From an uncultured Arenicella sp. (GTDB lineage: Bacteria; Pseudomonadota; Gammaproteobacteria; Arenicellales; Arenicellaceae), in the NCBI GenBank assembly GCA_937922925.1, contig CALAKU010000008.1:51853-115852 (forward strand): a DNA stretch of 64,000 nucleotides. Reading direction: 5' to 3'. The notes under the pieces are model-generated. The model was given only the letters and a program-made list of their open reading frames with translations. It ran no database searches and was not told where the DNA came from. A program made the translations under genes and the position numbers. This document shows, piece after piece, positions 34,742 to 38,460 of the stretch (position 1 is its first letter; each line of letters begins with the position of its first letter).

Positions 34742-35596
34742 CTAAAGCGTGATTTGCCCCTTCATTTTTTGCATCGCCCGTTTTTCGATTTGTCGGATGC
34801 GTTCAGCAGAGACATTAAACTCGGCAGCAAGGTCGTGCAGTGTCGCCTTGTCTTCGCTTAACCAGCGCCGCTCTAAGATAGTGCGGCTTCGGTCGTCTAG
34901 GTCGGCAATCGCTGTGTATAAAGCATCTCGATTGTTGTTGCTGGACTGGTCTTTCATCACCAATTGCTCAGGGTTATACCGCATGTCGGGCAAATAGCCT
35001 GACGGGCTGGTGCTGAATTCGTCATCATCGTTGTCTTGGCCGTCGAATGAGACATCAGACGACGTCATTCTTTGTTCCATCTCGCGCACGGTCTTAACCG
35101 GAACATCAAGATCGGAAGCCAATTTCTGCGTTTCTGATTCGTTCAATGCGCTTAAGGTCTTGCGTGATTTACGTAGATTAAAGAACAATTTTCGTTGTGC
35201 CTTAGTCGTTGCAACTTTAACGATCTTCCAGTTTTTAAGTACGTATTCGTAGATTTCGGCTTTGATCCAATGCACCGCATAAGACACCAAACGGATGCCG
35301 CGATCTGGGTCAAAGTTTTTGACGGCTTTCATCAAGCCAATATTGCCTTCTTGGATTAGATCAGCAATGGGTAAGCCGTAGCCGGTAAACCCTTTTGCCA
35401 CGTGCACTACATGGCGTAACTGCGATAAAACCAACTCTCGAGCGGCCTCTACGTCGTCTTTGTCTCGGTATTGACGGGCCAAACGAGCTTCATGCTCTGC
35501 CGTTAAAACAGGCGCATTGTTAGCGGCTTTTAAAAAGCTGGCTAAATTCGTCTCCTGGTTTGGGGCCAGGGATACTGTGGCTGCACTTGTTGTCAT
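34742..35596 (-). CDS. rpoH: RNA polymerase sigma-32 factor
   Basis: LIQEGNIGLMKAVKNFDPDRGIRLVSYAVHWIKAEIYEYVLKNWKIVKVATTKAQRKLFFNLRK (RpoH box); ATG at 35596 with GGAG upstream; next to ftsX. Confidence 0.95.
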   Translation of the reverse strand: MTTSAATVSLAPNQETNLASFLKAANNAPVLTAEHEARLARQYRDKDDVEAARELVLSQLRHVVHVAKGFTGYGLPIADLIQEGNIGLMKAVKNFDPDRGIRLVSYAVHWIKAEIYEYVLKNWKIVKVATTKAQRKLFFNLRKSRKTLSALNESETQKLASDLDVPVKTVREMEQRMTSSDVSFDGQDNDDDEFSTSPSGYLPDMRYNPEQLVMKDQSSNNNRDALYTAIADLDDRSRTILERRWLSEDKATLHDLAAEFNVSAERIRQIEKRAMQKMKGQITL

Positions 35597-35679
35597 GTTC
35601 GATCTCCATGCCTCTTTGAAACCATTTTCTGAGGCGGTTGTGGGGAAATAGCCTGTATTTACCCTAATTGAGACCAATT

Positions 35680-35706
35680 TTAGCACTCAGCTATTGCGAG
35701 TGCTAA
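35680..35706. promoter_or_regulatory. CIRCE element (predicted HrcA operator) upstream of rpoH
   Basis: TTAGCACTC-AGCTATTGC-GAGTGCTAA: both 9-bp arms match the consensus exactly with a 9-nt spacer. Confidence 0.93.
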
Positions 35707-35844: not shown

Positions 35845-36774
35845 CTATGAGGGTTTGATCTTGCGCAGGTGTTGGGCGACTGCCCAGCGAGCCGATAACC
35901 AACCCAGTGTAATGCCGATTAACACTAGGCTACCGATCTCCATAAGAGTCGGTTGATGGACAAAGCCACTGCTTTGGTACGCCGCTGCGAGCTGATCAAA
36001 CGGTTTGGCCACAAGGCTGGCCGCGATTAATAAAAACACCAGCGAGACTACGCTGCCAAACAAGCCAAATAAGCTGCCGTAGTAAAGAAATGGCCGACGT
36101 ATAAAGCCGTTAGTGCCGCCAACCAACTTGGTGATTTCGATTTCGTCGCGCCGGTTGTAAATGAGTAATTTAATGGTATTGCCAACGATCAATACCAATG
36201 CCAAAAAAAGCAATGCACTGAGTAATACCGAGATGCGGCTGAACGCATTCAACATGGCATTAAATCGGTCTGTCCAGGCCAGGTCTAGGCGTACTGAGTC
36301 AATGCCATCAAATTGAGAAAGCTCTTGTTCAAGTGCTTGCAGATGCTGAGCATTAGCGAAACCGCTTTTGGGCATTACAACAATCGAAGCGGGTAAGGGG
36401 TTTTCACCAATAAACGCCAGTTCAGAGTCCAGGTTTCCGCCACCACGTCCGGCGAGAATTCTAAATTCGGCAAGCGCGTCATCGGGGCTTAGCAACTCGG
36501 CAAGTTCTATTTTCGGGTGCAGCTGAATCTCATCAAAGATCAATTGAGCCGCACCATCGCTTATGTCTTTTTGCAGAAAAACGGTGAACTGGGGCTGGCC
36601 TTGCCACTGGCCACTCAGGCTTTTTGCGGTTTGAATACTCACAAACAGTAGGGCTGGAAGGAGCAAGGTGACAGCAATGATCAATATGGTATTGATGCTC
36701 GCCATGGGCGTGCGCGCCATATCGCCGAGTGTGGCAAACAGCACTTGCAGATGACGCGTGAGGTAGCTACCCAT
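35845..36774 (-). CDS. ftsX: cell division ABC transporter permease FtsX
   Basis: Position before ftsE; FtsX architecture. Confidence 0.92.
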   Translation of the reverse strand: MGSYLTRHLQVLFATLGDMARTPMASINTILIIAVTLLLPALLFVSIQTAKSLSGQWQGQPQFTVFLQKDISDGAAQLIFDEIQLHPKIELAELLSPDDALAEFRILAGRGGGNLDSELAFIGENPLPASIVVMPKSGFANAQHLQALEQELSQFDGIDSVRLDLAWTDRFNAMLNAFSRISVLLSALLFLALVLIVGNTIKLLIYNRRDEIEITKLVGGTNGFIRRPFLYYGSLFGLFGSVVSLVFLLIAASLVAKPFDQLAAAYQSSGFVHQPTLMEIGSLVLIGITLGWLSARWAVAQHLRKIKPS

Positions 36775-37426
36775 GTTCTATCAGCGCCCCTTCGTTCAAG
36801 TGCAGTGTTCGTTTTCCCATCCGCTCTATCTGCCTTAGGTCGTGCGTGGCAATGAGAACGGTGACGCCAACCTGATTAAAGTCGGCAAAAATGTCCATTA
36901 TTTCGTCAGACAAGTCTTCGTCTAGATTACCGGTAGGTTCGTCGGCTAATAGGATCGACGGCCGATTGATCACCGCGCGAGCAATACCAACACGTTGTTG
37001 CTCGCCGCCTGACAAAGTAATGGGCAGTTGCTTTTCTTTGCCATGCAGCCCAACCTTGCCTAGGGCCGCGCGCACTCGTTTCGCAATCTCATTGCGAGGC
37101 ATGCCTAGTACAATTAGTGGCAGCGCAACGTTGTCGAACACGGAGCGGTCCATTAGCAGTTTGTGGTCTTGAAATATGACGCCAATCTCGCGGCGTAGTG
37201 CCGGGATCTTGCGCTCAGGGAGTCGCCCTAGATTTTTCCCGTCTACTAATACTTGGCCTTGAGTAGGCCGCTCTATACGCGTGATGAGTTTGAATAAGGT
37301 GCTCTTGCCAGCACCGGAATGACCAGTCACAAACACCATCTCACCTTGAGCTATCTCCAAGCTGACGGATTTCAGGGCTTCATGCCCATTGGGGTAGCGT
37401 TTGCTAACTTGGCTTAGTTGAATCAT
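36767..37426 (-). CDS. ftsE: cell division ATP-binding protein FtsE
   Basis: GHSGAGKST Walker [15 protein letters not shown] signature, [10 protein letters not shown]. Confidence 0.96.
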
Positions 37427-38460
37427 GGTAGTGCTGGAATCAAGGCCTCGGCAAAGGTTTTGGCTTCGAAACGTTTGAGATCATTGTAACCTTCTCCAAC
37501 GCCAATGTAGCGAATCGGCAGCCCGTATTTCTGGGTGATGGAGATGGCCAAGCCACCTTTGGCGGAGCCATCCAGTTTGGTTAAACAAACGGAGCTGACA
37601 TCGACGGCCTTGTGAAAGTGGTCGAGTTGAGACAAGGCATTTTGGCCAGTTCCAGCATCAAGTATTTGCATAACTTCATGCGGCATAGACGGGTCTAAAT
37701 TGGCGAGCACTCGGTTGATCTTTTGTAGCTGCTCCATCAAGTCGCTTTGAGTATGCAGTCGCCCCGCGGTATCAATCATTAACACATGTGCGCCTTTGAC
37801 AATGGCAGAATTCAAGGCATCGTGAGCGACCGCGGCGGCATCCGCGCCATGGCCTTGTGCGACCACTGGAATATCCATTCGGCTACCCCATTCTTTAAGC
37901 TGCTCAACCGCGGCGGCTCGAAAGGTATCGGCTGCGGCCAGCATCACAGACTTTCCTTGGTCTTGGAATTGTTTGGCGATTTTGGCGGTGGTTGTGGTTT
38001 TGCCAACGCCGTTAACGCCGACCATCAGCATGACATAAGGGCGTTGGTGTAATACATTCCAATCTTGCTCGGCTGGTTTGAGCATGATTTCAATTTCGTC
38101 GCGCAAGCCTTGTACAACCTCTGTAGCGGTTTGAAGCTTGTCACTTTTGACCCGTTCGCGCAGGCGCTCAACCAATTTTAAGCTGGCGTCGACCCCGATA
38201 TCGCTAGTGATCAAAACTTCTTCAAGATCATCAAACAAATCGTCGTCTAGATCAAACGAGCCTTTAAAGACATGCCCAAGTTTACCTAAAAGACTGGAGC
38301 GGCTTTTATCCAGGCCATCTTCAACCGTAGCGGGCGAGGCCGCTTCTGGTTCAGTTGAATCGGTTCGGCGACCAAAAAAGCGGCTCAGGCCTGATTTGCG
38401 CTGCGGTTGATTCGCTGAATCTTCGGCTGACTGTTTGTTTGGTGAGTTGGAATCACTCAT
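37423..38460 (-). CDS. ftsY: signal recognition particle receptor FtsY
   Basis: MVGVNGVGKTTTTAKIA, DTFRAAAVEQL, DTAGRLHT, TKLDGSAKGG. Confidence 0.97.
   Translation of the reverse strand: MSDSNSPNKQSAEDSANQPQRKSGLSRFFGRRTDSTEPEAASPATVEDGLDKSRSSLLGKLGHVFKGSFDLDDDLFDDLEEVLITSDIGVDASLKLVERLRERVKSDKLQTATEVVQGLRDEIEIMLKPAEQDWNVLHQRPYVMLMVGVNGVGKTTTTAKIAKQFQDQGKSVMLAAADTFRAAAVEQLKEWGSRMDIPVVAQGHGADAAAVAHDALNSAIVKGAHVLMIDTAGRLHTQSDLMEQLQKINRVLANLDPSMPHEVMQILDAGTGQNALSQLDHFHKAVDVSSVCLTKLDGSAKGGLAISITQKYGLPIRYIGVGEGYNDLKRFEAKTFAEALIPALP

Follow-up and report, generated by a model that had tools for sequence, protein, structure and literature searches.

The window, by which we mean the whole 64-kb stretch of DNA that was analysed, carries the gene order ftsY-ftsE-ftsX, then rpoH, then a glutathione reductase gene. 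The features that concern us lie at and upstream of the start of rpoH.

34742–35596, minus strand: rpoH, encoding sigma-32 (284 aa), ATG at 35596 (TIGR02392, 379.4 bits; cut-off 323.1)
35604–35607, minus strand: GGAG, probably the ribosome-binding site, 7 nt ahead of the rpoH ATG (direct reading)
35677–35682, minus strand: predicted sigma-70 –10 element TAAAAT, which starts in the right arm of CIRCE and ends three bases past it (column logo; conservation of TAnnnT)
35680–35706, minus strand: CIRCE operator, a putative HrcA binding site (exact match; TTAGCACTC-GCAATAGCT-GAGTGCTAA reading toward rpoH)
35701–35706, minus strand: predicted sigma-70 –35 element TTAGCA, coinciding with the six bases that open the left arm of CIRCE (promoter scan; TTGGCA asymmetry)
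35845–36774, minus strand: ftsX, the upstream neighbour of rpoH and a possible source of read-through (TIGR00439, 283.7 bits; cut-off 255)
36767–37426, minus strand: ftsE (TIGR02673, 302 bits; cut-off 264.85)
37423–38460, minus strand: ftsY (TIGR00064, 325.9 bits; cut-off 260.7)

An earlier note on this DNA, made from the sequence alone, had described an exact-armed CIRCE with a 9-nt spacer, 83 nt upstream of the rpoH start codon. Direct reading bears this out: the sequence at 35680–35706 is TTAGCACTCAGCTATTGCGAGTGCTAA, without a mismatch to CIRCE (TTAGCACTC-N9-GAGTGCTAA), and it lies 83 nt from the ATG at 35596 on the minus strand. The identity of the downstream gene is equally secure, TIGR02392 being the equivalog family for RpoH and its cut-off being clearly exceeded; the closest named relative by RpoH is an uncultured Arenicella (81% identical), which places the DNA in that gammaproteobacterial lineage. 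Scanning of all 64 kb gave no other match to CIRCE with up to three mismatches, against a chance expectation of 0.01. That the repeat might be a chance or vestigial palindrome is hardly credible, given this expectation and given arms that are fixed, with variable spacers, across the order and the class; a chance origin is ruled out by the shuffled sequences together with the conservation.

Predicted promoter elements within the operator

The two predicted hexamers form the arrangement TTAGCA-N18-TAAAAT, with nine of twelve matches to the sigma-70 consensus and a TG ahead of the –10 element. Taken singly, such a score is within chance (0.8 expected in shuffles); it is the comparison of 195 distinct rpoH operators that gives it weight. 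At the overlap, TAnnnT is present in 183/195 and TAAAAT in 100/195, the column count placing T-A-A-A-A-T at positions 24–29 of the site when the first base of CIRCE is counted as 0, and the last T, which is outside the operator, is 94% conserved. The third base of the left arm is G in 42/195, giving TTGGCA, a closer approach to TTGACA; at the mirror position in the right arm, only 2/195 are changed. Such an asymmetry is unexpected for the site of a symmetrical dimer, and fits a –35 role of the left arm. The proposal that the CIRCE arms overlap a sigma-70 promoter is upheld, both in the presence of the hexamers and in the conservation of their overlap. As judged from these alignments, the rpoH operator contains the predicted core promoter of rpoH, the left arm giving the –35 element (TTA/GGCA) and the right arm beginning the –10 element (TAAAAT). 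The layout at groESL is different: in 12 groESL sites from relatives, a TTGAC...TATTA promoter precedes CIRCE.

It is possible that HrcA binds here and yet affects only a small part of rpoH expression, most of the mRNA being transcribed either as a continuation of ftsYEX or from a second promoter. The genes ftsY-ftsE-ftsX are immediately upstream on the same strand, and a search for a terminator-like site between ftsX and rpoH found none. Conversely, at 248 nt the gap between ftsX and rpoH is wide for a pure operon, and the retention of the in-operator promoter in 183 of the 195 sites would be hard to explain if it were unimportant. We consider a dominant contribution from read-through or from another promoter to be quite unlikely.

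Alternatively, the repeat might act not as a DNA operator but at the RNA level, forming a hairpin in the leader of rpoH that affects mRNA stability or serves as a thermosensor. The arms could pair in a read-through mRNA, and where A is replaced by G in the left arm, as it often is, a G-U pair would remain; however, the arms are conserved in sequence itself, beyond what pairing asks, and the site tracks hrcA (see below). In addition, TAAAAT would put the transcription start downstream, so that the arms would be outside the main rpoH transcript. No Rfam family, including the known RNA thermosensors, reaches threshold at the rpoH locus (a thermosensor of the E. coli type has no certain signature), and the rpoH leader folds no better than shuffled sequences (z = –0.95). 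With no Rfam match and an unremarkable fold, the reading of the repeat as an RNA element was set aside as highly improbable.

Conservation of the site and co-occurrence with hrcA

CIRCE precedes rpoH in all 21 genomes of the family to which the window belongs, with constant arms and differing spacers. Within the genus all arms are exact and the nine-base spacer varies between species, a combination that marks the arms as the part under selection. Of the 71 genomes examined in the order, 70 have the site before rpoH (up to three mismatches). The exception, G043, has two rpoH paralogues (G043:C1:2224166-2225020 and 1117239-1118093; L297, L298), neither of them preceded by CIRCE, and one CIRCE elsewhere in the genome. 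Another genome, G031, has two tandem CIRCE-like sites before rpoH (G031:C54:78492-78549).

For the class, which is understood in the GTDB sense and thus takes in the former Betaproteobacteria, 126 rpoH upstream regions from about 100 families were compared, and hrcA was scored separately. The sample was made up of the better-scoring rpoH matches, and lineages that lack hrcA are therefore undersampled. CIRCE with up to two mismatches is found before rpoH in 94/108 genomes with hrcA versus 2/18 without (Fisher p = 2.4e-10, the related genomes being non-independent). A further 7/108 of the genomes with hrcA have a three-mismatch site and 7/108 have no CIRCE-like site before rpoH. The two genomes in which the site is present and no hrcA was found (L161 in G180; L273 in G113) may reflect an assembly gap or a recent loss of hrcA. 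Of the 80 named loci, those of Methylomonas, Methyloversatilis, Thauera, Aromatoleum, Pandoraea, Dyella, Alcanivorax, Ketobacter, Sedimenticola and others carry the site, and those of Pseudomonas, Acinetobacter, Halomonas, Chromatiaceae and SAR86 have none before rpoH. When mapped onto a 79-row tree of RpoH, the CIRCE trait requires seven changes, compared with 25 when the labels are shuffled. On the evidence of these genomes, the predicted link between CIRCE and rpoH is the usual wiring in the sampled Gammaproteobacteria that have hrcA, and not an unusual one.

Outside the class, the site is missing from 37 of the 40 rpoH genes examined, and the wiring is therefore not phylum-wide. Near-CIRCE sequences are seen ahead of rpoH in two loci outside the class (L358 in G379 and L357 in G401; family code f177). 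One MAG contig is titled Chitinophaga pinensis, of the Bacteroidota (L109); the title looks wrong because its RpoH groups with those of betaproteobacteria.

A different kind of evidence comes from Pseudoxanthomonas, in which the rpoH operator is TTAGCAGTC-N9-GACTGCTAA (L364) and the groESL operator is TTGGCAGTC-N9-GACTGCTAA (L367), with the same change in both arms as the rpoH operator. If a single protein recognises both of these unlinked operators, a matching change in the two is what one would expect, and the altered arms are likely to represent a shift in HrcA specificity. The shared change was seen in one genome, the groESL site of G261 having only part of it. The altered arms TTAGCAGTC and GACTGCTAA also occur in genomes of the Xanthomonadales type (L360, L362).

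The HrcA regulon and the proposed control of rpoH

The genome that includes the window is a 2.69-Mb bin, 87.6% complete. It has an intact hrcA (TIGR00331, 328.9 bits, over the equivalog cut-off) adjoining an NAD-kinase-like gene (from reading of the ORFs), and the encoded protein has both the winged-helix DNA-binding domain and the C-terminal domain (PF03444 and PF01628). A genome-wide search found exactly two CIRCE sites, one before rpoH and one before groES-groEL (G000:C40:3970-3996), although further sites may be missing because the bin is only about 88% complete. The pattern search of the bin found no CIRCE before dnaK, grpE or hrcA. A third CIRCE, ahead of hrcA itself and suggestive of autoregulation, occurs in family f2 (L061:427-1527) and is absent from the genome of the window. 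Both grpE and dnaK have an exact sigma-32-type promoter, CTTGAA-N14-CCCCA (L314:662-686 and 1433-1457; two found, 0.01 expected). As these genes have sigma-32 sites and no CIRCE, the only route from HrcA to dnaK would, at the level of sequence, be through rpoH.

The central claim of the earlier note was that HrcA represses rpoH. Comparison gives strong support to a control of rpoH by HrcA: the genome has hrcA and close relatives retain the repeat (70/71 in the order), so that two of the findings named in the note as refuting are not borne out; the CIRCE scan returns rpoH and groESL, the site follows hrcA across the class (94/108 versus 2/18), and in one genome, that of Pseudoxanthomonas, the operators of rpoH and groESL share their arm change. 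We think it very probable that the HrcA operator contains the rpoH core promoter, that HrcA represses rpoH by occlusion and that, as a consequence, the sensing of GroE gates the sigma-32 regulon. The operator, the regulator gene, the promoter overlap, the conservation, the co-occurrence and the sigma-32 sites are read from sequence; HrcA binding, repression and a GroE signal are inferred from what is known of HrcA in other species, in which GroEL keeps it active. At low temperature, free GroEL would keep HrcA active, and HrcA on its operator would cover both the –35 and the –10 element of the sigma-70 promoter. Heat or misfolding would titrate GroEL, HrcA would be released and rpoH would be transcribed; sigma-32 would then drive grpE and dnaK, while groESL would be derepressed directly through its own CIRCE. 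Because groESL has that CIRCE, newly made GroEL would restore HrcA and so shut off both rpoH and groESL.

It is also conceivable that HrcA, while controlling rpoH, responds to temperature itself rather than to GroE. In this genome groESL has the operator as well, an arrangement that usually goes with GroE feedback, and we regard direct sensing as unlikely, if worth keeping in mind. In its favour, the HrcA of Campylobacter jejuni has itself been reported to sense heat (PMC8533110).

The proposed gating of rpoH by HrcA resembles the classical HrcA/CIRCE systems (groESL and hrcA-dnaK operons) in its operator, its repressor family and its groESL target. It differs in that the target is a sigma factor gene, and in that the promoter is inside CIRCE and not before it. 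A survey of heat-shock regulons by Permina and Gelfand in 2003 reportedly addressed the same question in the early genomes of beta-, gamma- and epsilon-proteobacteria. The suggestion that HrcA-rpoH links might already have been predicted for some proteobacteria proved correct: in Geobacter sulfurreducens, an exact CIRCE was predicted at a distance of 51 nt ahead of rpoH (Rodionov and co-workers 2004, PMC545781, Table 8), in a study that also records groESL as the only constant member of the HrcA regulon according to earlier observations. The two cases are alike in having an exact CIRCE before rpoH and groESL as the constant partner; Geobacter, however, is one delta-proteobacterial genome, for which no description of a promoter overlap was found (PMC545781), and its hrcA-grpE-dnaK operon has a CIRCE of its own, whereas in the genome of the window none precedes these genes. 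Beyond Geobacter, no report of CIRCE at rpoH was found in the papers searched (the main text of Leyn 2016 does not mention HrcA), and the 2003 survey may already list sites in beta- and gamma-proteobacteria. Because of the Geobacter prediction and of what that survey may list, the CIRCE-rpoH link is rated as known in kind, the new part being its breadth, its co-occurrence with hrcA and the composite promoter.

A predicted sigma-E promoter interleaved with the operator in relatives

In the class-level rpoH upstream regions (L147–L273), a GGAACTT block keeps a constant position, 16 or 17 nt ahead of CIRCE. With at least six of the seven bases matching, it is at –16 in 65 and at –17 in 16 of the 130 class-level and named sites; other offsets account for between zero and two sites each, except for six at –31. 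The first three bases of the spacer favour TAA or TCA, which creates TCTAA or TCTCA, partly within the left arm, at the spacing of a sigma-E –10 element. We take the GGAACTT/TCTnA motif to be of the sigma-E type from the known consensus and from the P3 promoter of E. coli rpoH; a sigma-E promoter was accepted where GGAACTT, 15–17 nt and TCTnA occur together with RpoE in the genome, a combination seen in many relatives. The two halves co-occur (72/133 versus 13/62, p = 1e-5). In the order, the –35 half (at least five of seven bases) is found in 19/23 genomes with RpoE, these including G029, which scores just below the family cut-off, versus 2/47 without (p = 2.5e-11, the genomes being related), and the groups that lack RpoE are spread over several families.

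The window itself belongs to such a group. The best match to the sigma-E box in it is 2/7, no RpoE scores over the cut-off in its genome, and none of the 21 genomes of its family has RpoE; an A/T-rich stretch takes the place of GGAACTT in this family. The box being degenerate throughout the genus and RpoE absent from the family, a sigma-E promoter in the window was rejected.

In relatives with RpoE, HrcA would cover the sigma-E promoter as well, and therefore envelope stress could fully raise rpoH only with HrcA off. Control of rpoH in E. coli involves several promoters, including a sigma-E one (P3), an mRNA thermosensor and chaperone-mediated turnover. E. coli shares the ftsYEX-rpoH neighbourhood and has at P3 a sigma-E-type promoter before rpoH like the one in the RpoE-containing relatives; it lacks HrcA (control search) and the CIRCE-rpoH wiring. 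We lean, by a small margin, towards a broader proposal for Gammaproteobacteria with HrcA: sigma-70 and sigma-E promoters would be combined with the operator of HrcA in a single 45-bp element, HrcA would gate the constitutive and the envelope-stress transcription of rpoH alike, and control in E. coli would be the remnant left after loss of HrcA. Textbook accounts usually present the HrcA repressor and the sigma-32 circuit as alternatives that run in parallel. If HrcA does gate rpoH as proposed, they would be in series in most of the sampled Gammaproteobacteria that have HrcA, with a GroE-sensing repressor above a DnaK-regulated sigma factor, and E. coli would be the exception and not the model; the interleaved sigma-E box would then be a testable gate linking envelope and cytoplasmic stress. 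In Gilvimarinus (L107), an exact sigma-E-type promoter is located about 150 nt before rpoH and has inside it a decayed CIRCE with four mismatches, as if HrcA control had been lost.
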